DNA of 64,000 nt from Hexactinellida sp. DTS-2022 (lineage: Eukaryota; Porifera; Hexactinellida), in NCBI GenBank assembly GCA_028753945.1, contig JAPNXP010000005.1:4464001-4528000 (forward strand). Reading direction: 5' to 3'. Positions 562 through 62,006 of the stretch are shown here, piece by piece (the stretch's first letter is position 1; every line of letters starts with the position of its first letter). Below the pieces are notes generated by a model, which saw only the letters and a list, made by a program, of their open reading frames with translations, was not told the DNA's origin and did not search any database. The translations under genes and the position numbers were made by a program.

Positions 562-3500
562 TCACCCCCTTTCGGAAATCTCACTTTGTCTGAGGGGGAT
601 ATTCGCGTTGTGGTGCTTCGTCCCATGTCACGTAATCTCCAAGATACTGTGGACGTCTCCGATCTCTTATTGGGTAACGTCTCGTTCCCATTTCTCCTCC
701 ACGATCCTCTGGGATCGTATCTAGTTCCTCGTAGTCTCCACTCACTGTACTATCAACTGTACCTGCTCTATCACCTTCATTTTGAGTATAACTGTTAGGG
801 GGGTCAGAGTTCTCTTCTCCTTGACCCATCAACGCCTGGGGTTCTGTCGTTTGGGTTTCAGGAGTTTGGAACGTAATTGGGATGGTTCCTTCGTATTGCT
901 TGCAGTGATCCAAGTGTACCCACTTATCCCGGTGGATCAGTCTGAGTTTCACGTCAGCTTCTCTCCGCGCGAGTACTTGATATGGTCCGTCGAACCTGGG
1001 AACTAGTGAATCCTCTCTAGCATTCCTCCTGAGAAGGACCAGATCTCCACTTGAGACCTGTGATTCAGATTTTCCTTTGTTACACCTCTCCCTCGCTTTC
1101 CTGAGGTTTTGATCAGAATACTCCTTCGCAATCGAGTTGAGCTCTGCTTGCTTGCGTCTTAAGGATTCCAAGTATTCGCTGTGTGTATTACTTTCGCATT
1201 CCTGTAACTCATTGCACCATGCGTCGAGAGGGCTCAGAGGTTCACGACCATACGTTAACATGTGTGGAGAGACTCGAGTCGTACTATTCACCATTGCATT
1301 GCAGTGGAATGAAACTTCGGAGAGCAAGGATGGCCAAGAACCTCTATCTAATTGCCTGTCCTGCTGCAGGCAACGAATGACTTGCTTGACCATTCCGATA
1401 TTTCTCTCTGACATCCCATCTGACTGAGGTCGGTAGGGTGTCGTTCTCCTCTTGTTTACACCGAGTGCATGGCAGAACGTTCTGAATGTTTCGCCGTCTA
1501 CGTTCGGCACCTGGTCACTCTATACCACCTTTGGGACACCATGTCCTTTGTAAACCCAGGCTTCTTCAAAAGCTTTCACGATTGTCGCTGCTCGTTGGTC
1601 TTTCATCGGCTGGACCTCTATGTGTCTGCTGAACAGGTCAACTATCAACAGAAAGTAGCGATATCCATCCTCTGACCAGGGAAGCGTCCCGATATCGATG
1701 CCCACTGCGTACCCAGGTCTCCCTTCGTATCCACACATTTCGCGAATCGGTTCTTTGCCCTTATTGGAAGGTTTTGATTTGTGGCAAACTAAGCAATTCC
1801 GGCAGGACTTCTCTACGTCCCTAGCCATCCCGACCCAGAAAAAATTCTTCCGCAGTGATTGTAATGTGCCGGCTTTTCCGAAATGGTGCTGTGAGTGTAC
1901 CTGTTCAATTACCTCGCATTTTATCTGTTTCGGTACCACTATCCTGTCCTGGAAGAAGAGTTTCCCTTGTACCACTTTAAGACGTTCTCCTACTTTCCTG
2001 AGACCCCCAGTTATTACCCTTTCACTTGATCTCAGTTGTCTGAGTGCGTCCTCGATAACTGGATCCCTTGATTGTCCTTCTGCAATCTTGGCCGGGAGAC
2101 TTTGTGTGGATTCCGTCACGTAGATTTTGTCCTCAAAGGCATCTTCTGAATTAACCTCCTCATCGAATTTGGCTTCTAGATTCCGACTGAGGTAGTCTGC
2201 CACGATGTTTTCCCTCCCAGGGCGTACGGCAATCTCTAGGGGTATTCCTTGAAGCTCCATTAACCACCTGGCAAATGTAGGCTTGGGGTCTTTTTGATTT
2301 TGGAGCCATCTCAAGGGAGAATGATCGGTGTGCACTACTACCCTCTCAGCACCTTTCAAATAAACACTCCATTTGCGAGTTGCCGCAATTACTGCCCACG
2401 TCTCTAGTTGCCCGGCCGAATAATTCTTCTGGCTGGGGCTAAGTTCGGATGAGTAGTACTCGAGGGGTCTCACTTTCTGAGTTGCTTCGTCCATCTGTCC
2501 AAGCACTGCTCCTATTCCCGTTCCACAAGCGTCTGTTTCAATATGGAAAGCCTGTCTCCAGTCTGGGAAGGCCAATGTGACCGGGTCCCCAGATAACACC
2601 CGGCGTAGATGTTGGAATGCCTCCTCGCATCCAGCGTCCCAATCCCATTTTACCCCTTTACGCGTGAGAGAATATAACGGCCCAGCTATACTAGCAATGT
2701 TCTGGATGTAGCAACGATAGTAGTTCACCGTGCCGAGGAAGCGTTGCAATTGGGAAACTGTTTGCGGCCTAGAGAAGTTTCGCACTCTTTCTACATAGCC
2801 ATTCAGTGGGCTTCCCCCCCCTCGTGATAGCCAGTGCCCTAGGAATTCAACGGATTCGAAGCCTAGCTGGCACTTGTCCATCCTCAGTTGCAGCCCCGCC
2901 TCGTCCAACCTCTCGAACACCCGAGTAAGGTGGTCAAGATGTTCCGTAAATGTTTGTGAATACACCAAAATGTCATCCACGTAACTCTCTACGTTGTTAA
3001 GCCCGTTTAATGCTTGGTCCATTACCCTCTGAAAAGTAGCCTGGCTGTTGCAAAGTCCAAATGGCATAGCCAACATCTCGAACAACCCACGTGGTGTGTG
3101 GAACGCTGTCTTTTCTGTGTCTTTTGGGCGAATTGGAATAGTCCAGTAAGCAGAAGCTATATCCAACTTGGAGAAATAGTGACTCCCGCGAAGCTTATCA
3201 AATATGCTTTGTGGATTCGGTAAGCTGTATTCATCCCTTTTAGTAATCTTATTCAGACGTCTGTAATCCACTGCGAACCGCAGGCTACCGTCCTTCTTTC
3301 TAACAAGGACCACGTCTGAAGCCCAAGGCGACGAGCTGGGTTTCACTATCGGTGGGCGAGCTGCTAGCATATCCTCTAATTGTCTGTTTATCTCCTCTTC
3401 CCACTTCGGGGGAACTCTTCTCGGGCGGCTCTTCTGAGGTAACGCGTCCCCAGTCACAATAGCGTGATAAGTTGATAGCTTGGTACGTGACGGTTTCTTG

Positions 3501-4948
3501 TGATTCAGTGCAAATCCATGATGGAACTTCTCGATAATTTTCTCGAGCTTAGAGTGTTCCTCACGCGGTAACTTTTGATTAATCAGATTGGGATGCTTTC
3601 TTCTGCTAGGATTTTCAACTTCTTCGTCTTGCTTTGCTACTTGAGCCCTGGCCAGCCGAGTTCCGCCACATATCTCTGTCTCATAGGACTCCCAAGTATC
3701 CCCAATCTTGATCCTGCTATTCTGAAAGTCGAATGAAACCGTACCCAGCTTTTGCATTAGCTGACGGCCGAGAAGTACCGTGGGTTCTTCAGTGTCGAGT
3801 ACCTGTATTTTCTGCACTACCGGTCTGTGCGAACCAACTTTTACCTTGGCCATCATGTACCCCAAGACCTGCACGGGACTGTTGCACAGCCCATACACCT
3901 TACTAGGCTCGTGTTCTATTATTTGAGTTAGGTTCAGTCTCTCTACTGTACCCCTGTCAATTACACAAGGTGTTGCTCCAGTATCCAACATTGCTGCTAC
4001 TTCCTTACCTTGGATTCGTACTATGAGCGTGACTGCGTTCTCACTAGTTGACACTTGGTAAACGTTTCCCCTGTCTATCACCGACTTCTTTCCGTAGCTT
4101 AAATTCCTCTTGGATGGACAGTAGCTGGTGCGGTGTCCGCTCTGCTTGCATACTGCGCATCTTTTGTGTGGACATTCACGTATGAAATGGCCAGGTTGAC
4201 CGCAGCCGAAGCACTTCCGTTCTGAGGGCGTTGCCTTCTTACTCTTCGGAAACCTAGTATCTGATCCGCGTACGCGAACCGTTTGGACCGTATCCTCATC
4301 ATCTTCGCTTGACACTGCGCTCTGGTCAGCGCCCGACGTTACTTCGATAGTCTTCGCGTAACACACCTTGGGGGAGTTCACACCGCGCCATCCTTTGTCG
4401 AGAGGTATCCCTTTACTCTGCAGCACTTGCCGAATCTCCGCTGCGAATTTGACAGCCCCATCCTCAGAGAGGTCTGCTATTTGCGGAGTTACCCATTCTT
4501 TGAGTTTCGGCTGCACTTCTTGAGGAAGTTGAGTTACCATAAATCTGCAAGCTTGTTTGGGGGTGATCTGTGCTATCTTTTCCTCTTCTAAGTACCTCGC
4601 GAAGAAATCCATAGCGGTTTCACCAGGTGGCCACGTCATGAGTCGGAATCTCTCAGTGGCAGCAAATTCGTCTGCTTTGGGGTCTAGTCGCTCTATTAGG
4701 TATTCGAACGCGGCTTGGAGTGATTCTGTTTCTAGTGCACCTATTACCACTTTGCACTCCATTTTCCCTCGATTGATATAAGCTGGCAGTAGTCTGATCG
4801 CTGCTTTGGCACCTCCTTCCCCCTGTATTATGGTGGATACCGCCGCTTCGAAATGTGGTCGCCACGAGGTAATTGTCTGTCCTTCACGCAACGGTGGAAT
4901 TCCAATGGAGATCGGCGTTGCCATTTTGTCTGATAGTATTTGTATTTA

Positions 4949-17749: not shown

Positions 17750-20700
17750 GGCCTACTAAATACACGGCCTGCTAAGTTCCCGAAATGAAACATAAAATAG
17801 CAGGCCATTATCTTATGCAACCATAATCTGTTTTTATGTTAAGTATATATACTTTTTTAAGTCTGAATCAATTATTATACATGTATATATTGATTTTTGT
17901 ATGCATTCTATTCCATTGCACTGCGCGGGGCGGGTTATTAGCATATGCGGGGGATTGGGACCGAATTTCGACCAGCGCAGACCTCTAATATAATCATACT
18001 TCTTTCTTTTACCTATAATTATTTTTTCTCTATTTAGCATATGCCTGAAAAGTGCTCAGTGGTTGGATGTAAATCTGGTTACCTAAATGGTCCTACAAGT
18101 CCACGCTTTAGATTTCCTTCTACATCGCTAAATGAGCTTCGTACCAAATGGATTTTATTCTTAAATCGGCCAGATTATGAAATAACTGCTAATTCGCGGG
18201 TTTGTGCTGATCACTTTGAGGCCCAATACATTAAAGTAAACGAAACTAGAACCCGATTAGTTCCCTTTTCTCTAAATCCTATTCCAACGATCCACCCAAT
18301 CTCAATCCCTAAAAGCCAGGCAGTAGTTCCCATCCAACCACGCGCGCGCAAGCCACCAAAAGTGCGTGTTTTCCAATTAGATCAACTTGTTCCTTATATG
18401 GAAAAGAACACCATCAAGAATTTTGATGATGTCATTAGGTTCCTGACGAAGAGCCCGGAATATCAAGACTACTTTTCACTCAACAGAGGACTCAATTACT
18501 GCTTACCATCTAGTAATCGATGCTGGAATCGCACGTATCAAAGAATGTATTTCTATCGACAAAGCCTTTCATGTTACACAAAGTTTTGAAGGTTCTCAAA
18601 TTCCTCTCCCTGAATACATCGATAGAGCTACAGGATCTAAGCTTACTCATTTGTATCTACTTGAAAACCTCCCTAATTATTGCAGGAACGTAACTTCAAA
18701 TTTCGACATTCAGGTGATTAAGGAGTTACTAAATTTTTGTTACATTAGACCTCGTGGTAGACCTAAGTATACAGCAAACATTTTGAAGTTTGCACTTCTT
18801 CTTCGGTACACATCTAATTCTGCCTACCAACTTTTGAAGAAATACATTCCATTGCCTAGTCTATCTCTACTTCGATCGTTGAAGTCACCTACAATCGATA
18901 ATTGTAAAGCACTTTCAGCTCTCCGTGACAACGATTTAATCGGAAACGATATGATCCTACTCCTAGATGAAATGTACCTCCAACCTCAAGTGAATTTTGA
19001 CCGTAAAACTTTAATTGGATGTGATCAAGATCTTGATCTATTCAAGAGTATCCTTTGTTTTATGGTTATTTCGCTAACTAAGTCAATACCATTTATAGTG
19101 TCAGCAATACCTATCGTGAGAATCTCCGGGGATATAGTACATTCTAGCTTAGAGAAATGCATATCTCTTCTGACTAAAGCACAGTTTAACCTTCGTGCGA
19201 TAATCGCAGACAATCATCCTACCAACGTCAGTGCTTATAAACAACTCAGACACCTACATGGAATTCGTGATAGTGATCATGTTATTTACAATCCTTATGA
19301 CTCTGAAAAGACAATTTACCTACAATTTGATACTGTGCATTTACTAAAGAATATTCGCAATAACCTACTAGCCGTAAAATGTTTTAACCTTCCTGAGTTT
19401 AAGTTCTCATCTCCTAATATTAGTCTTACGATTTCTGCTGGTTTAGTTACTTGGTCATCTTTTCATAAGATTCATGAACAAGATCTTCGTCTAGCTGCAC
19501 ACCTTCGAGCTGCACCAAAAATTAACTATTCAGTACTACACCCGGGAAACAAAAAACAGTCAGTTCCTCTCGCACTAGCTATCTTTGAAGAAACAACTGC
19601 ATCTGCTTTTAGACTCTATCTACCCGAAGATAATACAACACCCAGCTTTTTAGATCTAATTCACACATGGTGGTTGGTCGTTAATTCTAAAGAACCTTAC
19701 CATCCCAACATAAGAGGAAATGCATTAGTTTTCGGTGATTGTAGGCCTGAATTTTTAAGAGCTATGAACTCATGGTTAACCAAATGGGAGACCTCAACAA
19801 CATTTGGTTTATCAAGACAAACTTTCTCTGCTTTCAGACAAACTAATAATGTCATAGCAGATCTATCTTCTGATTTACTTTCTGATGGATACAAATTCGT
19901 TTTAACGGGAAGAATGCAAACTGACTGCTTAGAAAGAAGATTTTCACATTATCGTCAAATGAGCGGAGGACGTTTTCTTGTTAGCCTCAGTGAAGTAATT
20001 AGTTCAGAATCTATAATCAAGATGAAAACACTACTTCAACATAAACTCGAAATTAGTGCATTGACAAAGGAATCAAACCAAGAATATGATGAAAACCTTC
20101 TTGAAGAACAAGTTTTAAAGCTACAATTTATCAATTATGAAAATCTTCTTTTATCCGAGAAATCACACCAAGTTGTAGCATATATCTCTGGATTTATTTC
20201 ATATATTTTACTCAAAGATGCTTCATGCATAGAATGTATAAACCTTTTGCAGCAAGATCCTATAGTGACTCAATACCTCAAAGATTTGGATAGAGGGGGT
20301 CTTACTTTACCGTCTTATTCCCTTAATCATTATGTGGAATCTGCATTTTGTGTCCTTGAAGCTAGTGAAACTGAAATTGTCCAAACTGCATTTCCCTGGA
20401 AAACACTAAGCTTGAGATTATTACAGGAAGTCTCACAAACCTGGGATAGCGGTTTTGCATGCATCTTACATACACAACAAGTCCGAAAAACTGTCAACAG
20501 AATTATTGCCAACATTTATTACAACAACTTGCGGAAAGCCATCAATGAGAGCGTACGGAAAGACCAAGTAGCAGCGTTCAAATCGGTAAAGCGTCAAAAA
20601 GTTACTTAATATCAATTATTAATATTCTAGTAGTTATTCGATTTTAGTTAGTCTATAATATTATGTATTGATTAATACAGCAGTTCAACACATCTTCAAT

Positions 20701-33886: not shown

Positions 33887-36800
33887 TCACCTCCCTTTAG
33901 AAGAAGTCTTGCATTTGACAATCCCTACTTCCCTGGACCCTTGTAATGTACTCTTTGTACTCTTTAGGTTTTCTGTCCCTTAGTGGGTACCTCCGTGTAA
34001 CTTCAGTGCAAGGAGTGTCATCTATTTCTTGGAAGTGTTCCTCTGACGGATTCTCAACATCTTTTCCACTCCCCTCTGACATGTTTGTTTCATCTCTGGA
34101 GGGATTTGTGAACTCCAGGGTTTCATCTTCTACCTCGTTACTTGTCTCACTTAACTTTTCTAAACTAGTGTGAGCCGTATCCCTGTTGTTCATTTCTCCT
34201 GACATTTGAGAGTTGGGTAACATAAAGTCGCTACTTCTACTTCCTTTGTACAGTTTACACCGGCTCAGGTGGATCCACTTTGGTCCCCTACCGCGATCAA
34301 TCTTGACGTCCGCCTCTCTCCGTCCGATTACCCTATAAGGTCCATTGAACCTTGGATCGAGAGAATCTGTACGTCTCTCATTTCGTTCGAATACATAATC
34401 GACTGGGAAAGTTTCCGTCCTCCGTGTACCTCTGTCATATTTTTGTTGCATATTTCGCTTACTGATCCGATCATTCTCTGCTGCCTGCTCCAGGAGCTCG
34501 GCCTTTAGCTTCACCAATCGCTCGACGTGATGTTGATGTGTCTCGTCAGGACCCTCCTTGTGAGCAGCAATCCAGGCATCAATAGGAGATGTAGGCTGTC
34601 TACCCGTGCTGAGTACATGGGCAGAGAATTTGGTTGATGAATTCTCGATGTTATTTATTACAATAAAATGTAACTTCAGTCAAAATACTGGGCCATGCGT
34701 CCTTGTCTAGATTTCTTTCGATAGTTAAGCACCTTGCAACTTGCTTTACGAGTCCGATACTCCGTTCTGCAAGTCCGTCTGCTTGAGGGTGGTACGGGGA
34801 TGTATGCCGCTTTTCAATACCAAATTTATCGCACATTTCTCTAACCTCAGTACCGTCGACATTGTGAGCCTGATCGGTAAGTATACCTTTAGGCACCCCG
34901 TGACCCCGGAAAAACTCAGCCGTTCTCGAACTCCTTAACGATTGAGGAGGCCTTTTGATCCTTTAACGGAATAGCCTCTATATAGCGCGTGAAGACATCT
35001 ACAATACACAAAAAGTATCTATAGTTCTCATCAGACCATGGAAGTGTAGCTATATCCATAGCAATCAGGTCACCAGGTCCAATTCCACTAATATCAAACT
35101 CTTCAATCGGTTGCCTAGGACTATTGGAGGGCTTAGCTCGTTGACAAGTAATACAATCATTACAGAATACCTTCACGCTTCGAGCCATCCCCTTCCAAAA
35201 GAAATTCCGCTTCAGTAATTGTAAGGTTCTAGCCTTCCCAAAGTGCCCAGCTGCGTGAACCTCTGAAATTACTCTTGTTTGGGTATTCTTTGGAATAACC
35301 AGACGCTCATCAAAATATAATAATCCGTTCCTAAGTTCAAGATGCGTCGTCATATACTTAAGCTTCCCTGTCCTTACGCAACCTTCCCTAATAAGCTGCT
35401 CAGTTGCGCTAGACACCACCGGGTCGTCCTCCTGATCTTTCTTTATGTCTACCATTCTTTGGCAAATCGGCTCAGCAACAAATATTTTTTCTTCAAACTT
35501 AGTTTCGTCTTGCATCAAAGCGTCGATCGGTTTGCCTGGAACCCGACTGAGGTAGTCGGGTAACAAATTCTGGGCCCCTGGTCTATAGATGATTTCATAA
35601 TCATACTCTTCCAGTTCTAATATCCAGCGCGCAAATGTATGGCGCGGATCACGCTGGTTGCGGAGCCACAGTAAGGGGTTATGATCTGTTATTAGCTCAA
35701 TCTTCTCCGACCCCCGTAAATAAACGTTCCATTTCCTACAGGCCGCCACTAGCGCCAAGGTCTCCAGTTGTCCGGCAGAGTAGTTTCTCTGCGCTGGACT
35801 GAGAGATGAGAAGTAATCAATCGGTCTGAGTTGACCCGTACGTTCATCTTTCTGAGATAATACCCCTGCAATACCATTAACGCTTGCGTCTGTTTCCACT
35901 GTAAAGTTTCTCTCCCAGTTTGGAAATGCCAACATCACCGGTTCCTTGACCAATTTGTCTCGTAACTTTCGAAATGTCCCTTCACTATCTACTGACCATT
36001 CCCAGGTAGCCCCCTTTTCTGTCAATCGGTACAGGGGTCCAGCCAACTCTGCCAAATTCGGGATATAGGATCTGTAAAAGTTCAGGCTCCCGAGGAATCG
36101 CTGTAGTTCTTTCACACTAGTAGGTCTGGGAAAGTTTGACAATTTCTCTGCCGCGCTGGTCAAGGGTCTCCTACCGTCTTCAGATACTGAGTGCCCAAGG
36201 AACTCAACTTTATCATAACCCAGTTGGCATTTTCTAAATTTAATATGAATATTCGCTTGCTTCATTCTTTCCAGGACTTCTTGCAAGTCCACCAGATGCT
36301 GTTCAAATGTCTGCGAAAAAATGATGCAGTCATCTATATAAGACTCCGTATGTTTCAAGCCTTTCAAGGTGCTATCCATCATTCGTTGGAATGTAGCTTG
36401 GGAGTTGACTAGACCAAAGGGCATCACTGTCATCTCATAAAGCCCTCTCGGGGTGTTGAACGCGGTCTTTTCCATGTCGTTATCTCTAACTGGTACGCAC
36501 CAATATGCAGAGGAGATATCTATAACGGAGAAGTATTTGTAACCATGTAGCTTATCGAGGATAGACTGGATTTGCGGGATACTGTATGCATCCTTTTTTG
36601 TTACTTCATTGAGTTTTCGGTAGTCAATTGCAAAACGTTGCTTCCCATCCTTTTTGGAGACCAAAACTACATTACTAGACCATGGTGAGTTTGACGGTCT
36701 ACATAGTCCCTGTTCTAATAACTCGTCCAGTTGCCGGTTTATTTCTTCCTCCCATCTGGGCGGGAGTCTACGTGGTCGATTCTTCACCGGCTGGGATTCC

Positions 36801-38272
36801 TCAGTATCAATCGCATGTTGACACACATTTGTCCGTCCTGGTCTCTCGTCGAAAATCCAATCATATTCTTCAACTAACCAGGTAAGTTTTCCCCATTGAT
36901 TGGGCGTGATTTTTGGATCAATGACTGGTTTACTTGTGCTTGTCGCTCGCTCTATGCTCAATACCTGTTTTGCTGTCTTTCCCCTTTCTAGGGGATCACC
37001 TCCGGTAGCTTTAGCAAAGATTGGTATTTTCGCTTTCCCAAGGCCGACTGTACCCCTAGACCAGTCAAACGTTACACAACCAAAAAGCTGCATAAACTTC
37101 GTCCCAGCAACAGTGCTTGTCCATCCCCTTCCAGTAATTGAATCCTTGACACCTTTGAACTCTCGTTAGTAATCTTGATAGGGGCGTCCACATACCCTAT
37201 TACTCGTACAGGCATATTGCACACTCCGAACACCTGACCCCTTGACGGCATTAACTTGTGTCCCAATTTTAGTTCTCGCATGGTACCTACGTCCATTACG
37301 TTCACTTTAGCTCCTGTATCGAGAAGAGCTCGAGTTGATATTCCATTAACCTTAACAGAAACAGTTGCAGATCGTTCGTCCCAATTTTCTTCGCCCTCCA
37401 CACAGAATACCTGTTTCGAACATATTCCCCATTTTAATTGAATCTGCATTGATAGGCGTTGTGACCACGACGGCCGCATTTGCTATAGGTTCTATCAAGA
37501 CAAAATCTCCACAGATGACCCACTTTACCACAGGTATAACACTTGCTAGCTTGTTTAGAGCTGGCTCTTTGAAAGGTTGTTCCCGATCGTTGTCTACCTT
37601 GTGACCTTACTTGATAGACCTCTTCTTCGATTCCTTTCCGATCTTCGTCCTTGACTTGCGCAGGAGGACTATAATCTTCAACTGTCCGTATATCGGCAAC
37701 AATATTAAGACGGGTTCCGTGTTCTAAACTCATGCCCTTTTTTAGAAGAGTAGCTTGAACTAGTGTAACAAATTCTCTAACTTCCTTTTCTGTACACTCC
37801 TCCTTCGTTTTGATCCATGCTTTGATCACTGACTGTGTTTCTTGTGGGAGTTCACCTACTAGAGCAGCACATGCTGCCCGTTTGCTCAACCCTGCCAGCA
37901 TCGCTTGCTTTAACAATTGATCGAAAAATACTTCTATTCGGACGCCTCTCGCTCATTGGGTTTTTCTAAATAGCGACAAAGCTCCAAATTCTTCAATAAG
38001 TTGATCAAGACTGTCGGACATCAGTTCGAAAGCTTCTTTGAGCGTATTCTCTCTAATAGCCTGTAGTGCAATTAATCTCTCATAATCATTGCGACACACA
38101 AAAGAGGGTAGCATTTGGATAGCTACCTTTTCAGTAGAGTTTGAAACTAGCGCGCTAGTCGCCGCCAGAAATAACGGCATCCAATCTTCTATCCTTTGAC
38201 CATCTACTAAGGGCGGTATGGAAATGTTCAAGGGTGATGCCATTCTGAGTAAGTGACACTAAATTGTTTTTA

Positions 38273-43698: not shown

Positions 43699-46600
43699 AT
43701 GTCTAAATCTGCTAAATCAAGAGTAAATAAGATTTTTGGTAAAGCAGCAAAGGAATCTGAAAAACCTAAGTTTGATAGCCCTGAGCTCAAAAGTTCATAT
43801 TCTGGCAAAAAGAGAGACATTGGCTACGATCATTCTTGGAATCCAAAATCTGTAATTTCCTCACCTGATAAAGTTGAAAGCTATACGTCACATAATAAAG
43901 GGTATTTAAATCCATTAAAGGAAAAGAGACCCACAGCCTCTATATCGAATTTCCGCGGAAATGTAAAGAAAAAGGGGAAACAAGTGGACTATGATGACGA
44001 TGAGCTTACCGATCCACCAATTGAGCATTACGAATCGATATCAATGGAATCGGAGTTGTCAATGGAGCTAGCTTCATCTAAGTCGAGAAAGATGGTTAAA
44101 CAGATGTCTATTGACAATAATGAGATCTATCGAGACAAAGGTATACACAAAGTGAGGACTACTTCTATTGCAAAGAATCCCAAACAGAAATTCAACTTCC
44201 TAGATCGCATCGCGCCCTCTCAGAACATACCATACAACCTAGACTTGAATGAGACTAATCCAGTTAGGGGTCTGGCACACATTGTATCGCTACACTGGGC
44301 GGCACCAGATGTAGACGGAGAAATCAAATCTCTCAAGGATTCATTACGCGCTATGAAGTATGAAGTCGTTTGTACAAACGGAATAAGTCAAAAGGATCTC
44401 TTAGAAATGAAGGATGAATGGATACGACAGCTACAAACAATGATGTATCCGTCTTTCATTGCTATTCTAATCGGCTCGAGTGATATCGAACAGAACTTTG
44501 TGACGACAGATAACAAACTTCTCTCGCGAGACGAAATTCTCCAAGGTTTGGACCTCGGTTTCCCTCACGCTATCCCTAAACTGCTTTTCTTCAACTCCCT
44601 TGTTCCCTCTGCTTCTACCAATATAGCACAAGATATTCCGAAGAACACATTGTACATTCATACTTACCTGGACGCTCGTATACATGGAGTGCGAGCTGAT
44701 GTCACACATCCATTCCTTGACACGCTATATGACGTCATACGTACGAAGGGGAATCATGAAGAGTTCCAGGAAATGATCCGGCGCGCTAAACACAACTGTC
44801 TTTCTACATTTAAATTTTACGCTGAGCTAAAGATACGTCAGCACTCAACCCTACTGCGTCCTCTCTTCCTGATGCCTGAGTTTATACAAGAAAACTCTAA
44901 TAAACTGAAGAGTTATTTCTCTGTCGAACAAGCCTATCCTATCTCAAGCAGTCCCAAGCACGGGCTAGTTGTATTGGGGTTAATAGAAGACCCTTCTTGG
45001 TTTCAGACCGCTAAATATCAGAAACCCACAAGGTCCATTTATAACAACCTCAAGACCACATTGGAATTCTATAACCTGCGTGTATCCACATTCGAACTGC
45101 ACAGTAAGTTTGATTACAAGAATGAGCTTTTGAATGAGGTGCGTCGTTACCACGGCCAGTCTGATATGATTATGATTATAATGCTGGGGACCAGTGCGAA
45201 CGAAGGTTATTTCAAGTTTCGTAGCGGCGATAGACAACTCTCGGTAGGAGAAATCTTAGAAGATTTGCAGTTAATTGCTCCTGACCTTCCAAAGCTCCTG
45301 TTCATTAGCCAGCTGCTCCATCTCGACTCTAGGGAGAGCAGCTCTAAGCTATTGAAGCACAACTTATTGCAGCATGAAGAGAAAGCGCCGTATATACATA
45401 ATTCATTCATATTCCATGCGAAGAATACAGAAACTAATAGTATTGAAGGCACATTCTTAAATTCCCTTTCCAACGCTTTTCAGTCGAAATTCCGTAAATT
45501 GGAATTCACAAAGATAATAACCCGCGTGAGATTGGATTCGGGTGAGAAAAACTTATTACCTCACTTTTTGGAAATGAACAACTTAGAGCGACCTTTGTAC
45601 CTACTCCCAGAGGAACTTAAGATATCCGCCGAGTTAATGTCTCGAGGAGAGGAATTCGCCTCTCTCTACCAAGAGGCTTTGGACGATGGATTGGAACTGT
45701 TGCGGTTCTACAGACTAATGGTTGTAGGCCCTGAAGGAGTGGGAAAGACTTCTCTCCTGCGAGCTCTGACCGGGAAACCATTCCAGTCCAACCAAGCCAG
45801 CACTCCCTTCATTGACAAGTTCGATGTACAGATCCATAAGATCAGCAAGGATTGGCAACAGAACGAAGATCTCGACAGCTATGCTGACAAGCTATTAGAC
45901 ACAAAAGAACAAATGGCTGTTAACTATGTAGTGGGTAAGTTGAAGGAGAACCAACGCAGGGATTCATCCAGTACTATATTTAATATTAACACGTGTCCAT
46001 TGGATCTGTACAAGTTCTGTGTTGATGATCCTAGCGAATTCAGTGATACAGTAACAGAAGAATCAAATGCTACTAACACAGAGCGTACAGCGTTAGATAG
46101 TGTATCTAGTTCAACGACAGTGTTCTCTAAACAAGAAAGTTTTGATATAAATACAAGTTTCACTCCTATAGAAGAACACTCCACACAATCCATTCCTTTA
46201 GATACGAATCCCAATATTGGATTTGAAATCCCATTTGATGATATTACTCCTAAGTTAGAAGAAAATATTGAATACTTAACGACACTAAAAGAACCAATTC
46301 AAGATGTCCGCATTCCTCCCCCACCGCCCGATATACCAACAAAATTCCAACCTAAACTAAGGAAGACCTATCAAGAAGCGGATTATAGCGAATCGGAATT
46401 AGAAACCATGGATCTTAAAGAGAACCTAATCGATATTCCTATCAACAAGATATATTCCACACTCAATCAAGACTCTCAGTCTCAGAATGTAGAGCATCCA
46501 GATTTCCTTACTGCTTGGGATTTTGCTGGACAAAACTATCTATACTGTTTCCACTCGTTATTTCTATCTCCACGCGCTATATACCTGTTGCTAATTGACC

Positions 46601-49278
46601 TCAATGTTAAGGATCTGAATGATAAGATAGATATTCGCGAGGAGAGAAAAGACAGGTTATCTCAACGTTCCTATTCAGGCGTTCCAAAGACTTATCTTGA
46701 AGCTATTGAGTTTTGGTTGAATGCGATATACTCTGTAGCGCGTATGCCACACTCTGAGCACTATTCGCGGCATTCGAAGGTAGTGTTTGTGTTTTCTCGA
46801 GCTGACAAGTGTGATGAACCGACCGAGAGAGCAATTAAACACTTCCAAACAATACAAGATCATATGATAGGTAAAAGCAATGCATTCTCTATAGTGCATT
46901 TGAATATTAATAAACCAATAGTGATCAGCTGTAAACCAAATGATCCGTATCTTAAAAATATTGATCAGATTAAAGATTTGCTTGAGGAAATTTCTGATAC
47001 AGTAGCTTTCAGGCAGGAGATTCCAATTCGATGGCTTGAGTTAGCACGAGCCATTCTTCATGAAAGAAGTCCATTTATCAGTCACAGGCGTTTGGAACTA
47101 CTGTGTGAGAAACACGGTTGTACAAAGGATTTCGACCATCTCATCTCTCTGTTTCACGATATAGGATTCTTCTTCTATCAGAAGGGGATTGTGATACGAG
47201 ACATACAAACTTTCCTTAACATTATATACCATGTCATATCGCCGCAGTATGGAGATAAAATAATCGCGAAAGCGAAAGAATACGACAGAGCGTTTTTGAA
47301 ACAAGACCTGCTTGATTGTCAAAATGCTGGAAGGATAACGAATAAACTCCTCAACCACATTCTCCTATTAGACGATGACATTTCGCATGTACGGGAGGAA
47401 GTAGTTCAACTCCTGCTCACATACGGAGTTGTTATTGACTCCCAAGCTGAGGCGAAACACCCTTTCTACTATGTGCCGTATCTCTTGACTGGGAATCTAG
47501 AAGAACTGCTTGCATTGGACGAAGACATAAACTCTATTTATCTGTCTGTGGATGATAAGTCAAGTCAAACATTCTATCTGTATTTCCCAGACGGGTTCAT
47601 TCCTGCTGCGGTGTACTTTAGTCTTTTAAGCCAGTGTCTTAAATTCAATAAATCGAAAAAACAGCCACAACCATTGCTTGGATTTGATTGTGCGCGTTTT
47701 CAGTTGTCACACGACCATTCATTTATTCTCGATTTCTGTTCCAACAAAACCTACATTCGTATTCTATTCAACAGTTCTTCTACACATTCCTACCATCTAA
47801 CTGAACGTCTTAACTTCCTACACTTCATTCAAACTCACATTTCCGAGATACAGGGTAACATCATCCCGTGTGGAAATGCAGCTAAGATAGCTGTTGAGTG
47901 CAGGTGTAGGGAACTGTACCAGATGAAGAAACTTGTGCAACCGTGTGTGTTTCTAGATCAGCTGTTATCTACACCCACTGGACACCGAACTTCTTGGTGT
48001 CACACGTCCCAGAAATTCGAGGAATGGGACCATTTGTTTATCGATAAAGACTTCTGCTATGACATGTTACAGAGGGAATTTAATAGCGATGATTTAGCTG
48101 GGTATATTTTTGAGAATATAAACGTGTTTGAGGAACACTTGGATATAATGGTGCTGTCGAGACAGTTGTATTTTGGTGGTCTATTCACTGCTAACGACTT
48201 GTCAATGCTGTTGTCCAAAGAGAACAGTGAAATGACAGCTGAAAGCATACTCGCTCAGCTTTTGCATCAATCGAATAACTGGGCATTGAGATTCTATTTG
48301 TGTCTACAGCGAGAAACTACTCACTCGGGGCATTTGTTCTTAGTCCAATTCATTGATTCGTTCTTTTTTCAAAAGCGATCCGAACAATTGACAGCGGTGG
48401 GAAGCACAACCAGTGACAAGCGGAAGCGATACGCACACCTTGGTGGGAGCATTATGCCTTCAGATTGTGAAGAAGAGTTCGACCGTTATAAGATGAATTG
48501 CAATCCACATGGAGTAGCAATGATTATAAATATTGAAACATTCCAAGATGACCCTTCCATGACTAGGAAAGGCTCTCACCATGATTTTATCAAGCTACGT
48601 GAGACATTTGAGCAACTTCAGTATGTAGTGTTAGGTTTTGAAGATCTGACTAAACAACAGTTCAGAAAACAGCTGTTTAACGTGCGAAAAATGGACCATG
48701 ATAAATACGATTCTTTTATTTGTGTAATAATGTCCCACGGAGATGAGAGTGACAACGTCATCACTCATGATAAGAGAAGAATCAGCAAAGAAGAGATACT
48801 GAATGAGTTTAATCCTCAATACTGTTCTGGACTGATTAAAAAACCTAAAATATTTATCTTTCAAGCGTGTAGAGGATCGAAAAACGAAGGAGTTACACCG
48901 ACATTATTATTACAAGCGACAGATGAAGCGGAGCCAACTTACCCGGATGATGAGGGAGCAGAATTGAATCTGACAGATGAGCTATTCATAAACCGAGACC
49001 TCCCTTCGGTTTCTACATTTGATAAATCAATAACAGTCCATCACCAAAGCGATACTTTTATTGGGAATTCCACTGTACAGAACTACGTATCCTACAGGAA
49101 CCCATCTAAAGGTTCCATGTTTATTCAATCTTTTTGCAAAGTTGTACAGTACACTCGGTATGAAGAGTTTCAGCATATAATGAATGAGGTCCGTAGGCGT
49201 GTATCTATGCTCTCAAAAAAGTATGTACAGTGCACCGAGGATATCAACCATTTGACTGCTAAATTATACTTCTTCTAG
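43699..49278 (+). CDS. ROCO GTPase-CARD-caspase fusion protein
   Basis: An uninterrupted 1859-codon frame; an in-frame TAG precedes the ATG. Residues 1-190 are charged and low-complexity. About 195-395 and 421-640 are two caspase-fold domains lacking the catalytic pair (His box reads LIGSSD and MLGTSAN, Cys box FFNSLV and FISQLL). The Roc GTPase follows, with GPEGVGKTS (677-685), WDFAGQ (940-945) and FSRADKCD (1032-1039). About 255 residues separate the first two, so the switch I region holds a long Ser/Thr/Asp-rich insertion with a PPPPP run. COR spans about 1100-1445, starting IPIRWLELARAIL. A CARD (about 1450-1558) resembles that of initiator caspases. The C-terminal caspase (1600-1855) keeps MSHGD (His1680), QACRG (Cys1724) and YVSYRNPSKGS (Arg1800). 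Inferred role: GTP-controlled assembly activates the caspase for cell death or defence. The layout is not one I know. Confidence 0.9.
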   Translation: MSKSAKSRVNKIFGKAAKESEKPKFDSPELKSSYSGKKRDIGYDHSWNPKSVISSPDKVESYTSHNKGYLNPLKEKRPTASISNFRGNVKKKGKQVDYDDDELTDPPIEHYESISMESELSMELASSKSRKMVKQMSIDNNEIYRDKGIHKVRTTSIAKNPKQKFNFLDRIAPSQNIPYNLDLNETNPVRGLAHIVSLHWAAPDVDGEIKSLKDSLRAMKYEVVCTNGISQKDLLEMKDEWIRQLQTMMYPSFIAILIGSSDIEQNFVTTDNKLLSRDEILQGLDLGFPHAIPKLLFFNSLVPSASTNIAQDIPKNTLYIHTYLDARIHGVRADVTHPFLDTLYDVIRTKGNHEEFQEMIRRAKHNCLSTFKFYAELKIRQHSTLLRPLFLMPEFIQENSNKLKSYFSVEQAYPISSSPKHGLVVLGLIEDPSWFQTAKYQKPTRSIYNNLKTTLEFYNLRVSTFELHSKFDYKNELLNEVRRYHGQSDMIMIIMLGTSANEGYFKFRSGDRQLSVGEILEDLQLIAPDLPKLLFISQLLHLDSRESSSKLLKHNLLQHEEKAPYIHNSFIFHAKNTETNSIEGTFLNSLSNAFQSKFRKLEFTKIITRVRLDSGEKNLLPHFLEMNNLERPLYLLPEELKISAELMSRGEEFASLYQEALDDGLELLRFYRLMVVGPEGVGKTSLLRALTGKPFQSNQASTPFIDKFDVQIHKISKDWQQNEDLDSYADKLLDTKEQMAVNYVVGKLKENQRRDSSSTIFNINTCPLDLYKFCVDDPSEFSDTVTEESNATNTERTALDSVSSSTTVFSKQESFDINTSFTPIEEHSTQSIPLDTNPNIGFEIPFDDITPKLEENIEYLTTLKEPIQDVRIPPPPPDIPTKFQPKLRKTYQEADYSESELETMDLKENLIDIPINKIYSTLNQDSQSQNVEHPDFLTAWDFAGQNYLYCFHSLFLSPRAIYLLLIDLNVKDLNDKIDIREERKDRLSQRSYSGVPKTYLEAIEFWLNAIYSVARMPHSEHYSRHSKVVFVFSRADKCDEPTERAIKHFQTIQDHMIGKSNAFSIVHLNINKPIVISCKPNDPYLKNIDQIKDLLEEISDTVAFRQEIPIRWLELARAILHERSPFISHRRLELLCEKHGCTKDFDHLISLFHDIGFFFYQKGIVIRDIQTFLNIIYHVISPQYGDKIIAKAKEYDRAFLKQDLLDCQNAGRITNKLLNHILLLDDDISHVREEVVQLLLTYGVVIDSQAEAKHPFYYVPYLLTGNLEELLALDEDINSIYLSVDDKSSQTFYLYFPDGFIPAAVYFSLLSQCLKFNKSKKQPQPLLGFDCARFQLSHDHSFILDFCSNKTYIRILFNSSSTHSYHLTERLNFLHFIQTHISEIQGNIIPCGNAAKIAVECRCRELYQMKKLVQPCVFLDQLLSTPTGHRTSWCHTSQKFEEWDHLFIDKDFCYDMLQREFNSDDLAGYIFENINVFEEHLDIMVLSRQLYFGGLFTANDLSMLLSKENSEMTAESILAQLLHQSNNWALRFYLCLQRETTHSGHLFLVQFIDSFFFQKRSEQLTAVGSTTSDKRKRYAHLGGSIMPSDCEEEFDRYKMNCNPHGVAMIINIETFQDDPSMTRKGSHHDFIKLRETFEQLQYVVLGFEDLTKQQFRKQLFNVRKMDHDKYDSFICVIMSHGDESDNVITHDKRRISKEEILNEFNPQYCSGLIKKPKIFIFQACRGSKNEGVTPTLLLQATDEAEPTYPDDEGAELNLTDELFINRDLPSVSTFDKSITVHHQSDTFIGNSTVQNYVSYRNPSKGSMFIQSFCKVVQYTRYEEFQHIMNEVRRRVSMLSKKYVQCTEDINHLTAKLYFF

Positions 49279-55310: not shown

Positions 55311-57970
55311 TTGCTGTTTTGTATATACACGAATATCAATGTGTTTGATGCGTTTAAACTTTGCATGAATAATAGAAATAACTTCACTTCTTACATTTCG
55401 AATGTATTTAGGAAAATCCCATCTTCTTCTTTTGCATTCTTATGGGTAGGATTATTTAGTTGGAGAGAACTCTTTCTTAAAATTCCCATAACTCTTAAAA
55501 CTCTACCGAATGTACCTATCAGTTTCGATGCTAACTATCTTTTCGAAACATTCAACAACTGTTGGCTACTAGAGCTGGCCCATATGGAGATTGGACAAAT
55601 ACCTAGTCTTTGGAAAGTTCTTATGAAAACACTCGTTGTATTCTGTTTTATTTAAGTGTCGTCACTCGTCAGTTTACTATTTTTTTCTCTCTACCTAACC
55701 TCAATATTTTTTAATTCTTATATGGCTGATAAGTGCAATTGAGAATGTACAGCACTATAGCAAGCTGAATTTGGTCTGCATTGCAATTCATTTAGCAATC
55801 TCTGCTGTGTTCCAAAGCATATTACGTAACACTATGGAATACGGGTTATTGACAACAGCTATATATCAAAGGGTACTCTCCATGTCCCTTACACAAATAC
55901 AGAGCTTATCGGTTGGTAATATTCTGACAATAATAACTTCCGATCTTTATAAATTTGATATATTCTTCAATAACGTTCCGTATATATTCATAAATCATAA
56001 CTCCCATTGGTATACAGTGGACTCTCCGAATAACGGACACGTTGGGGAAATGGCTTCTGTCCGTTGTAGAGAGTTGTCCGCTTCTCGGAGACTGGTCCAT
56101 AATTATTACATGTATGGTAATTTAATTTCGTTCCAAGAGGCTTGTCCGTTATAGAGGGGTTGTCCGCTTCTAGGAGTGTCCGTTTTGGGAGACTCCACTG
56201 TACTCTTAATCACTGGACTATCAAGCATTGAATTTGGTTGGTTATCCATCCTCATAATCTTATTCTTTATTATTCACTTTATGGCTCAGTTAGGGCTTGG
56301 GTGTGTATATTGTATCCCATTTACCAACGAGCTTTGAGGTACTGTGACCAAAGGAACAAATGCATGCGCGAATTTATTGAAGGATTTCGAATTATAAAAT
56401 GCTTCGCTTGGCAGTATGCTGTTGTCAATGCAATAATATATATCAGGAAGAAAGAATTTTTCACAATTCTAGCACATTTGTTTTTCAAATCTCTATTAAA
56501 TTCTCTGTCCGTTTCAATTCCACTCCTCTATACTTTCTCATTTTGTTTGAGTGCATACGTACTATCAGGTGGGGTCTTAACTTCCAATAGAGTATTTGGC
56601 TTCCTTGCCTTTATGAGGTTGTACCAGAGTTGTTTCACGAGCTCAACGTTTGGAATTTCAGTTCTCAGTGAATTATGTGTGAGTGTAAATCGCGTTAGAG
56701 ATGTATTATTGCTTCCTATTAGGAAGAGTGCTTGCTTAGCGAAGAAACAAGAGTTCCGATTTGAAACTGAGATACCCATAGAAGTTGCTAGTCTAACAGC
56801 TGGACGAATGAAGAAGGATCAACAAGTTGAAACTTGTATTCACAATATTTCTATTAACTTATGGAAAGGACAAAGTATGTCTGTTATTGGAAAAGTGGGA
56901 GCTGCAAAATCCTCTCACTTGCTAGCACTGATGAACGAACTAGATATAGTGAGTGGGATAATTGAACTGTTTGGGTCTTGTGTGTATGTTCCTCAAAATC
57001 ATGGATTCTCTCTATTTCAATTCGTGACAATATAACCTATGGCAGGGAATGGGATGAAGACTGGTGTAAACAAGTGGTGTCTTCCTGCTGTTTGGAAGTT
57101 GATTTCCGACAAATGAAGGATGGAGACCTTACAATAGTTGGTGAGAGAGGCATCACGCTTAGTGGCGGTCAGAAAGCCAGAATAAGTCTAGCAGAGCTTT
57201 CTATTACAACTCTGATATCTATCTACTGGATGATCCTCTGAGCTCTGTCGATCCAGAAGTAGCGAGGCGTCTGTTCTCTGTGTTCAGGGAGGGAATACTC
57301 TCAAAAAAAACAGTAATCCTAGCTACGCACCAACTTCAGTTCGCAATTCAGATTGACCAAATACTCCTCTTAGAATCTGGGAAACAGGTAGCGTATGGAA
57401 AATATTCTGACATACGATAGCGATATAACCCTTCATTCAAAGAATACTGGCAAGTTTTGTGGAATACTTCAACAAGCATGATAAACAAAGAAATCAATCA
57501 AACCATCAGTGAACCACAAAGTGTACATTATTCGAAAACAACAGAACCAGTATTAAACGAGACACAGATTCGACTGAAAAAGTCACCCACTATAATGGAA
57601 TATCTCTATTTATATATGCAAAATATATCTGGACAGGCGGTAAGTACCTCGGCGTAGTATCTCTCTTGTTCTTTTCATTGGTACCATATTTTCCTATTGT
57701 AAAAGGCACCAGCTATTGCCTAGTTTGGTGGATTATTGCTCAAGAATCCAATTTCACCTCATCATCTATTAATAACACAGTACAATATTTTAATCCTCTC
57801 ATTCTCCTCTCTATACTTCAACAAGTGATACTTTTGTTGGTATTTGTTTGTTGATCAGTGTGCTTATGTTGTCCGCAGCTCTAACTTTTTCTTGAATTCC
57901 AGCATTTTCTTCTTATCGACTACACATAACTCTGTTATGGAGAGTCCTCTGTACGTTCTACTATAAGCTT
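55311..57970 (+). pseudogene. ABCC/MRP-type ABC transporter, decayed and truncated
   Basis: Pieces in order: FDANYLFETFNNCW and PSLWKVLMKT (the ABCC lead-in to the first membrane domain, about 55.5-55.65 kb), AIYQRVLSMSL, YCDQRNKCMREFIEGFRIIK (the ABCC coupling helix) and several membrane helices to about 56.7 kb. Then comes nucleotide-binding domain 1, with a Walker-A-like GKVGAAKSS (Ala for the usual Gly), the VPQN Q-loop, the LSGGQKARISLA signature, LLDDPLSSVD and an ATHQLQFA His loop. The start of the second membrane domain ends near 57970 at a dispersed repeat. Domain 2 ATPase is absent. The frame shifts near 57.0, 57.2 and 57.65 kb, and a TAG follows the first ATPase domain. A mariner MITE (56015-56200) interrupts the first membrane domain. 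No introns are evident. It would have been a membrane exporter; now a relic. Confidence 0.82.
56015..56200. mobile_element. Tc1/mariner-type MITE in the ABC gene
   Basis: A 186-bp element with inverted ends CAGTGGACTCTCC and GGGAGACTCCACTG and TA on both sides. Internal GTCCGTT/AACGGAC and GTCCGCTTCT repeats. Confidence 0.88.
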
Positions 57971-59779: not shown

Positions 59780-62006
59780 CTACAAATATAATAGTATGTA
59801 GAGAGAATCATCTAATATGATCTCTAAGAGAGTACTGTCTTTGAAAGGAGTCTCGCTTCCTTCCAGTTGAAACCTAACAATCATTTGTTCTAGGTCACTC
59901 AACTTGATTTTGCTACAAATAATCGCCATCCTTTTATTCTTCACAATTTCGAATAATCTGAGTGTCCAAGCAGATGGATTCATCACACGATCCAGTAACG
60001 TAACCAATACAAAATCGCATTGAGGAATTTCGTTAGCCAACGAAGTAAACTGCTTGAATTCCAAATTTTCAATTTTTGTGTTGTTCCCTATTTGAAATCC
60101 CTCAAATGTCTCATGTTCTTTCCCATTCTTAACATTCAGACAGAAATTTATCAGCCTACCTGAATAGTCTATCCCTAACACAGAATTAAATTCACTGGAT
60201 AATTCGAAGCAAAGCATACCAAAGCCACATCCAATGTGTATAAAGGAACCTGATCCATGATCCAGTTTACGTATATACTCAATGATAACATTGTTATAGG
60301 CAAGGGAGGAAGTAATTTCTTGGTTAAAACCATCATCAAGCTCAATTGTCAATTGTTTATTAGAACTCGGAATAAAACTTTTTTAATTCAAACCAAATAC
60401 AGAAGGTTTGCTGTGTACAAACCCATAATCAACTACAAATGGTTGAGAGCTGCAGAGACGAACTGGAGTGTCGTCTTTGTTGATGGCTTCCACCAGACGG
60501 AATCCAGCATGCTGAAAGAAATGACGCCTAAAAGCATTGCGACAATAACGTGAAGCAAAACTACCACTGGACATAAAGGATCCACCTAACATCAAGTTGT
60601 GTCTACCGTCAAACAATGAAGTAGAATAGTCATCGTAAAGGTTATGAGTCTCAAAACCTTTGAGACCATTAAAATGACATTCAGTCCATTACCATACATT
60701 CCCATATGTATCATAGAAACCAGCATCAGATGGAGGGAACAAATTGACAGGCGTAGAAGAGCAGAATTGTAGATTAGAGTTTAAGTTGGGTTTGTCGTTG
60801 AATGCTGGATCAGAACAATTTCCTGATTCGGCAGGTAGTTCTCTGCCCCGCATGAGGTGATGTTCAGCTTCAGTAGGGAGTCTGGTGTAATTACCTGTCC
60901 AATTGCAGAAAGCTTTAGCTTCATGGTAGTCGACATTAACAGGCCAGCTCCAAGGCATCTCAATAACGTCAAACATGGCTCTGTAAAGGTAATTATCTCC
61001 TTGATTAAGCGATTTAAAATTTGCAGATGAAGTGGCTGTATGTTCACTACTGGTATTCAAATTTGTTTCTGGTTTGCAGTGCGAATAATTATTGAGGTTC
61101 CCTCCACAGATGGACACACATCCATGTTGACACACCCATAAATGTGGGTGTAAAGGTTTAGCAAATACAACCCATTCCCATCCCTCTTCTGTCCAAAATT
61201 CCTTCGTTTTGTAACCACCAGTTTCTACAAATTTAATAAACTGTTCATTCGTGACGAGATACTGTGAAGCTCTGAATGCAGGAGTTTCTACAAATTCACT
61301 GCCAAATTCGTTATCCCAGCCGTAAGCTGGAAAATCCTTTGGTTTTCCTAGTTCAACAGTTCCCATAGGAACTTCAATGAAATGGTTCTGCGTGATTTAA
61401 ACTTTTGGTTTTGTTGGTCCATAACTCCAAGCTGAAGGCTTTTGTACTAAATCAACAGGCAGCTCACGCAGCATCACTGAAGAAAGCTCGATGTGAATAC
61501 GAGTGTGATCCATACAAAGCATCAGAGACCACCAAGTGCTGTTTCATGTGATCGGGAGAAATAAAGGAGTTGAATCTATCGTCTTCAAGGATTAATTCAC
61601 GGACTCTACGACGGTAATCCACTATTCTATTGAATTGGGGCCAGTTCAAGGCACCTCCCATCCGAAAATTACAAGTATCATCCCAAGAATTCTCATCAAC
61701 ACCTGTTCAAAGATTTTCTCAAATTCGAAGTCAACTCTCTTTTTGATGAAACCAAGAATTAAACAATTTATTAACAAATACAACAGCTGTATGACCGTAA
61801 TAGAATATGATCGGTAAACGTAATTGATTTGGGGATATGAGGATACTTGATGTATCTTTGAAGCATAAGAACAGCTTTTCATCGAGATCGTATGTTTCCT
61901 CGAAGTAAGTCTTGATTTGAAGTTTAGTACATGTTGCTAGATCAAGCGGCTTCATTGACTGGAACCTCATCTCTTGCCCTGCCTTGCCGGTTAGTAATTG
62001 CCTCAT
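59780..62006 (-). pseudogene. ovoA: Ovothiol synthase OvoA, full-length but broken
   Basis: OvoA joins cysteine and histidine oxidatively (iron-dependent) and can methylate the thiohistidine product. Pieces in order: LRLPIIFYYGHTAVVFVNKL (DinB-like part), GVDENSWDD, HTRIHIELSSVMLRELP (two iron-binding His), then the FGE-sulfatase-like domain (YGWDNEFG, GGYKTKEFWTEEGW, WPVNVDYHEAKAFCNW, RLPTEAEH, DGRHNLMLGGSF, FFQHAGFR). Last comes a SAM methyltransferase domain (IHIGCGFGMLCFEL, GIDYS). The span of about 740 codons equals a whole OvoA without introns. Frame changes near 61.76, 61.70 and 61.52 kb and in-frame TAA codons near 61.38, 60.69 and 60.38 kb show it is not functional as it stands. Either a dead paralogue or a retrocopy; ovothiol synthesis would need another copy. 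Confidence 0.85.

Follow-up and report, generated by a model that had tools for sequence, protein, structure and literature searches.

We identified a gene that carries a Roc-COR GTPase module and an animal-type caspase on a single polypeptide chain. It lies in the window, by which we mean the whole 64,000-nucleotide stretch analyzed from the glass sponge Hexactinellida sp. DTS-2022, whose genome comprises 112 Mb in 18 contigs. The gene occupies window positions 43699 to 49278 (forward strand, as for all of its features below) as one intronless frame from ATG to stop, and its 1859 codons encode, in order, two degenerate caspase domains, Roc, COR, a CARD-like segment, and a caspase with an intact active site. 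We hold this architecture, a ROCO-CARD-caspase with pseudo-caspases on one chain, with high confidence. An initial annotation, made from the letters alone, had placed a P-loop (GPEGVGKT), DFAGQ, SRAD, SHG, QACRG, and YVSYRNPSKGS in one 1859-codon frame, and all of them are present; the profile check that it called for returned both Peptidase_C14 and Roc above their Pfam cut-offs in the frame. Its order of Roc, COR, CARD, and caspase on one chain agrees with profiles, predicted folds, and conservation among homologs, but it had overlooked the two N-terminal pseudo-caspases.

Two trivial explanations of the frame were rejected. At the stop-codon frequency of the window (0.0632), the probability that 1859 codons all stay open by chance is about 2e-53. 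A chimera of gene modeling or assembly was dismissed, since seven further sequences can be aligned from end to end (49 to 84% identity) and intact paralogs stand at other places in the genome. In the alignment of eight orthologs, these seven sequences all terminate in KLYFF, and the N-terminal extension (residues 1 to 185; 43699 to 44253) is poorly conserved. Single-exon genes are common in glass sponges, and a table for Aphrocallistes vastus gives 19,578 genes and 12,409 single-exon transcripts (PMC10282587).

The C-terminal domain bears out the claim of an active-site-complete caspase in its SHG and QACRG motifs and in its profile. Peptidase_C14 matched residues 1605 to 1857 with an E value of 3.3e-49 (168.1 bits; cut-off, 21.4), within a domain spanning residues 1596 to 1859 (48484 to 49275). 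In the family alignment (27 rows, 28 to 84% identical to the window protein), the catalytic His1680 of SHG (48736 to 48738) and Cys1724 of QACRG (48868 to 48870) are kept in 26 rows, as is Arg1623, which we take to be the S1-pocket arginine for a P1 aspartate; the remaining row, P0027, has no caspase domain. QACRG is exact in 25 of the 27 rows, P0013 reading QSCRG, and P0015 is missing most of the small subunit. With a caspase fold, a His-Cys dyad, and QACxG, the domain belongs to the caspase family (C14) and is predicted from its sequence to cleave after aspartate. The p20/p10 linker (residues 1731 to 1784; 48889 to 49050) contains Asp1760, which is invariant in all eight orthologs and is a candidate processing site.

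The central part of the protein is a Roc-COR module. Pfam Roc matched in two stretches (E = 2.8e-11; 44.1 bits versus a cut-off of 27), and the insert-split domain (residues 670 to 1103; 45706 to 47007) matched the folds of Roco2 RocCOR, LRRK1, and LRRK2. The G1 motif or P-loop (GPEGVGKT, residues 677 to 684; 45727 to 45750), G3 (DFAGQ, 941 to 945; 46519 to 46533), and G4 (SRAD, 1033 to 1036; 46795 to 46806) follow the patterns GxxxxGK[ST], DFxGQ, and [SNT][RK]xD, each found in all 27 alignment rows. As expected of the Roco family, a COR domain (residues 1104 to 1440; 47008 to 48018) comes directly after this Roc domain with its G1, G3, and G4. A STAND ATPase identity was rejected: neither NACHT nor NB-ARC occurs among the 12 Pfam matches of the window protein, and the P-loop lies within Roc. 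Between G1 and G3, comparison of lengths and the predicted local distance difference test (pLDDT) of the model delimit a low-complexity variable insert (residues 756 to 905; 45964 to 46413). The insert ranges from 39 to 320 amino acids across the 27 rows, and pLDDT falls below 50 over model residues 97 to 252. Because no stop interrupts it and each of the 27 rows has a counterpart, the insert is taken as coding rather than as a retained intron. Roc would presumably bind GTP, and oligomerization would probably depend on the nucleotide.

Much of the N-terminal third is occupied by a pair of degenerate caspase domains. Domain 1 (residues 186 to 405; 44254 to 44913) aligned with the family's own caspase in hhalign with a probability of 96 and a score of 66, compared to at most 20 in 30 column shuffles, and domain 2 (residues 412 to 640; 44932 to 45618) reached a probability of 97 to 98.6 and a score of about 80, compared to at most 22 in 30 shuffles. 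Both copies have lost the catalytic His and Cys, and a predicted caspase fold without the dyad makes them c-FLIP-like pseudo-caspases; no tandem DEDs accompany them, since Pfam gave no DED match in the window protein at E values up to 1. In the model, residues 308 to 543 match a circularly permuted caspase-2, and most ordinary caspases match over about residues 178 to 638. The two pseudo-caspases are thus paired in a swapped arrangement there, which their resemblance to each other may have produced as an artefact.

Between COR and the caspase, residues 1452 to 1578 (48052 to 48432) form a bundle of helices in the predicted model. We regard this segment as CARD-like, with good but not complete support. 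In a paralog, Pfam CARD exceeded its cut-off at the same position (36.8 bits versus 23.9). Four of the 27 family members gave a CARD match at E values up to 0.1 (best, 0.0011), and among five members inspected P0023 alone shows it, at the COR-caspase position. In the whole genome, Pfam CARD gave five matches at E values up to 0.1, three of them over the cut-off; two of the five, one above and one below the cut-off, lie in ROCO-caspase paralogs, between COR and the caspase. Moreover, the family segment scored 28.8 against a set of five CARDs, compared to at most 15.4 in 50 shuffles (probability, 53%), and a caspase-free profile of six family members reached APAF-1 CARD chains with an E value of about 0.02. 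Fold comparison yielded no match row covering this segment alone. Pfam lists no Death domain in the window protein, and a death-fold-like segment after COR fits CARD. The CARD-like block of the initial annotation is thus favored by the paralog profile, the CARD-set score, and the modeled helices, but not by a Pfam CARD call in the window copy itself.

The protein had been described as self-contained; its parts are indeed fused, and it is also one member of a gene family, with 6 intact genomic frames and 26 homologs. These homologs (26 hits of 5623 candidates in a length-limited search at E values up to 1e-3) are 35 to 88% identical to the window protein in the best local alignment, and P0002 to P0008 share 54 to 88% locally and 49 to 84% over the whole protein. 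Two are assigned to the hexactinellid Oopsacas minuta (P0006 and P0009); both carry Roc and C14, and their deposited name, "caspase-3," hides this architecture. We infer that the family is restricted to glass sponges. The window protein matches 36 places in its own genome. P-loop, COR region, and caspase dyad stand in one open stretch in the window gene and at loci L009 to L012 and L014, while L013 is missing the G3 stretch and has its N-terminal part in another frame, L027 is broken by a stop, and C12 and C15 are remnants.

A midpoint-rooted tree of the G3-to-COR stretch (41 rows, comprising 36 family members and 5 other ROCOs; P0027, P0030, P0031, and P0034 were left out) separated the other ROCOs from the family by a fully supported branch. 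Group A consists of the window gene and P0002 to P0008 (support, 100/100), and group B of L010, P0009 to P0012, P0014, and P0015 (95/92). L009 and P0033 form group C (100/100), which P0013 joins less surely (95/65), and group D, with weak support (81/88), holds L011 to L014, P0016 to P0026, P0028, and P0029. P0032 stands apart from all four groups, and P0032, P0033, and P0035 are long branches. End branches in group A measured 0.012 to 0.063 in the seven rows other than P0008. Group D is multi-copy in this genome and has longer branches; three recent copies gave ratios of nonsynonymous to synonymous substitution (dN/dS) of 0.52 to 0.61, a sign of weak constraint that is not decisive. The source sequences of P0008 and P0013 (5705 and 5746 bases) barely exceed the coding frame, as a transcript would give.

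Outside the family, protein searches, from which relatives sharing few words would escape, listed no match that combines Roc with Peptidase_C14. A length-limited search with the caspase-free profile (E values up to 0.01; at least 89 proteins, 7997 candidates scored) listed the family, including further relatives beyond the 26 homologs, followed by ROCOs of bivalves, a crinoid, a flatworm, and others, and by bacterial leucine-rich repeat (LRR)-Roc-COR proteins; from P0035 onward, no Peptidase_C14 was found among the matches listed. When the caspase domain was searched against proteins of 1022 to 3253 amino acids, 20 of 249 candidates were hits, and each of these is listed with Roc and C14. NCBIfam returned one irrelevant weak match only, and PADLOC returned none. 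P0092 and P0101 combine LRR, Roc, and COR with CHAT at the C terminus (28.9 and 45.5 bits; cut-off, 24), presumably a member of the caspase clan, and have no CARD.

The closest published precedent is bacterial: in LRR-Roc (AP-GTPase)-COR proteins, a caspase is one of at least 24 domains that can take the C-terminal position (PMC8195603). The earlier statement that NTPase and caspase sit on separate chains in known systems is therefore wrong for bacteria, by that paper and by the LRR-Roc-COR-CHAT proteins P0092 and P0101. For animals, the open-licence papers listed yielded no description of a protein of this kind. The genome papers of O. minuta and A. vastus contain "caspase" 0 times, and the former contains "apopto" 0 times. 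A demosponge NLR paper names CASc and COR among the domains of its NLR-architecture figure (PMC12909245).

Like the bacterial LRR-Roc-COR-effector proteins, the glass sponge protein has a Roc-COR switch and a caspase-type C-terminal effector on the same chain (PMC8195603). Unlike them, it bears two pseudo-caspases in place of LRRs in front (Pfam found no LRR in the window protein at E values up to 1), an animal-type caspase with QACRG, and a CARD-like segment between COR and the caspase. A review of Roco proteins distinguishes three groups; DAPK1, which has Roc-COR and a C-terminal death domain but no LRR, belongs to the third (PMC6337361). The window protein resembles DAPK1, which is linked to cell death (PMC6337361), in lacking LRRs and in having a death-fold-like segment behind Roc-COR. 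DAPK1, on the other hand, carries a calmodulin-dependent kinase at the N terminus and a Death domain, where the window protein has pseudo-caspases, a CARD-like segment, and a caspase with an intact active site. LRRK1 and LRRK2 differ in having repeats in front and a kinase and WD40 behind. No kinase, as DAPK1 and the LRRKs possess, is among the 12 Pfam matches of the window protein at E values up to 1. Three proteins of the bivalve Sinanodonta woodiana (P0037, P0051, and P0052) show Roc, COR-A, and CARD in that order, with a similarly wide gap between the Roc stretches, but have no caspase and align at 22 to 24% identity over 47 to 55% of the query. Other ROCOs scanned carry Macro and Death (P0036), Death (P0054), or BIR (P0066). 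Many bivalve ROCOs among P0036 to P0079 are fused to CARD, Death, Macro, BIR, TIR, or PF18738, and these fusions look like an immune-type ROCO expansion.

APAF-1 with caspase-9 and NLRs with caspase-1 also combine a nucleotide-dependent platform, a CARD, and a caspase. In those systems the parts are separate chains built on an NB-ARC or NACHT ATPase, whereas here they form one chain with a Roc GTPase. Similarly, c-FLIP is a separate protein with DEDs, while here the protease chain itself carries two pseudo-caspases.

CARDs assemble, and initiator caspases fire by proximity. We are evenly divided over a reading of the protein as a ROCO-caspase that unites a nucleotide-binding Roc-COR, a CARD assembly domain, a caspase zymogen, and a tandem pseudo-caspase regulator; the initial suggestion of a GTP-gated death or immune switch is plausible. 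In the resting protein, the caspase domains would be kept apart or inactive by the pair of pseudo-caspases and by the state of Roc-COR. A signal, perhaps received through the variable N terminus or the Roc insert, would change the nucleotide state and oligomerization of Roc-COR. The CARDs would then self-assemble, and the caspase domains would meet and fire by induced proximity, possibly once the linker between p20 and p10 has been cut near Asp1760. Like c-FLIP-L with caspase-8, the pseudo-caspases may form pairs with the active domain, and they may restrain or boost the protease. Rocos are reported to cycle between monomer and dimer (PMC6337361). We infer oligomerization, proximity activation, regulation by the pseudo-caspases, and a role in cell death or immunity.

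Several observations weigh against the ROCO-caspase reading. Pfam COR-A (residues 1109 to 1187; E = 6e-5) scored 23.4 bits, under its cut-off of 35.3, and Pfam makes no CARD call in the window protein. The linker site reads LTD-E, and an acidic P1' residue is usually disfavored. The large model has a mean pLDDT of 65.2 and a predicted template modeling (pTM) score of 0.57, and its interdomain packing is therefore not informative. Pfam finds Roc but no C14 in P0027, P0028, and P0031, and C14 but no Roc in P0030; hence, some members may lack the fusion, or the gene models concerned may be partial. Finally, the genome holds at least 64 C14 matches and at least 94 NACHT matches, many of the latter in intronless frames of about 1100 amino acids (domains were counted by exon, as lower bounds), so other platforms exist.

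A distinctly less probable account is that of a non-lethal signaling protease, acting locally, for example, in remodeling or wound isolation in syncytial tissue, and not in whole-cell death. Glass sponges have syncytial tissues (PMC10280926), and the slow evolution of the window gene's ortholog group, with its short branches, suits a constitutive role; group D, in contrast, is multi-copy and faster evolving and looks immune-like. It is improbable that the protein is a scaffold first and a protease second, with Roc-COR, CARD, and pseudo-caspases forming an NLR- or CARMA-like immune platform whose caspase only processes partners: bivalve ROCOs join Roc-COR to CARD, Death, TIR, or BIR without C14, P0027, P0028, and P0031 likewise have no C14, and the genome encodes a CARD/coiled-coil/PDZ-like frame, a CARD-only frame, and a MALT1-like Ig-caspase frame, yet every one of the 26 rows with a caspase domain retains the catalytic His and Cys. 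That Roc-COR has lost its nucleotide switching and serves solely to dimerize the caspase is more improbable still, for although the large G1-G3 insert (39 to 320 amino acids), the subthreshold COR-A, and the genomic copy L013 without G3 would suit it, G1, G3, and G4 are kept in 27 of 27 rows and mussel ROCO-CARD proteins show a similar gap between two Roc stretches.

It is possible, though we stop a little short of leaning to it, that glass sponges evolved a further Roco group, the ROCO-caspases, as a one-chain apoptosome with a FLIP-like pair and, among animals, the first equivalent of the Roc-COR-caspase conflict proteins of bacteria, with at least four paralog lines, one slow and one expanding and immune-like, in syncytial bodies where cell death is contained differently. 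Animal caspase platforms have been described as multi-protein assemblies on NB-ARC or NACHT ATPases, and a one-chain family is a different design, in which the switch is a GTPase of the LRRK2/DAPK1 type. ROCO-caspases would tie animal cell death to bacterial Roc-COR-effector conflict proteins and would offer a molecular entry point to cell death and immunity in glass sponges, with their syncytial tissues. Because all parts are on one chain, the family also offers a simple system for asking whether the nucleotide state of Roc-COR controls an attached enzyme by proximity.

Other death and immune components were searched for in the same genome. NB-ARC gave no match (six candidates scored); since this search ran exon by exon with no animal genome as a control, it does not show an absence of NB-ARC, and hence a replacement of APAF-1 by the family. 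Gasdermin gave no match in a search without a positive control, and Bcl-2 gave one weak match below the cut-off. There are at least seven BIR matches, five of them clustered at C5:4489675-4500492. COR-A exceeded its cut-off at ten loci, and in the four of these that were scanned all have LRR and kinase and two have ankyrin; the genome thus holds LRR-COR-kinase genes apart from the ROCO-caspases. In A. vastus, no bona fide NLR was recognized by the domain criteria of one paper (PMC12909245). L033:3066-6761 is a CARD frame with parts that look by eye like coiled coil and PDZ, L035:2661-3128 a small CARD-only frame, and L023:612-3323 an Ig-caspase frame like MALT1; these frames are possible parts of a CARMA-BCL10-MALT1 complex. 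Eight C14 matches are arrayed in short frames at C6:322813-336041 (L018 and L019), and the three frames scanned from this array have N-terminal halves without a Pfam match at E values up to 0.01.

Around the gene, inspection by eye revealed retroelement-like frames (zinc knuckle, reverse transcriptase, and integrase-like) and a THAP-like transposon frame, at window positions 581 to 4924 and 33897 to 37093 on the reverse strand and 18041 to 20609 on the forward strand. Fragments that likewise resemble, by eye, a sulfatase-modifying/ergothioneine-type enzyme and an ABC transporter exon lie at positions 60689 to 61366 (reverse strand) and 56238 to 57035 (forward strand), respectively.
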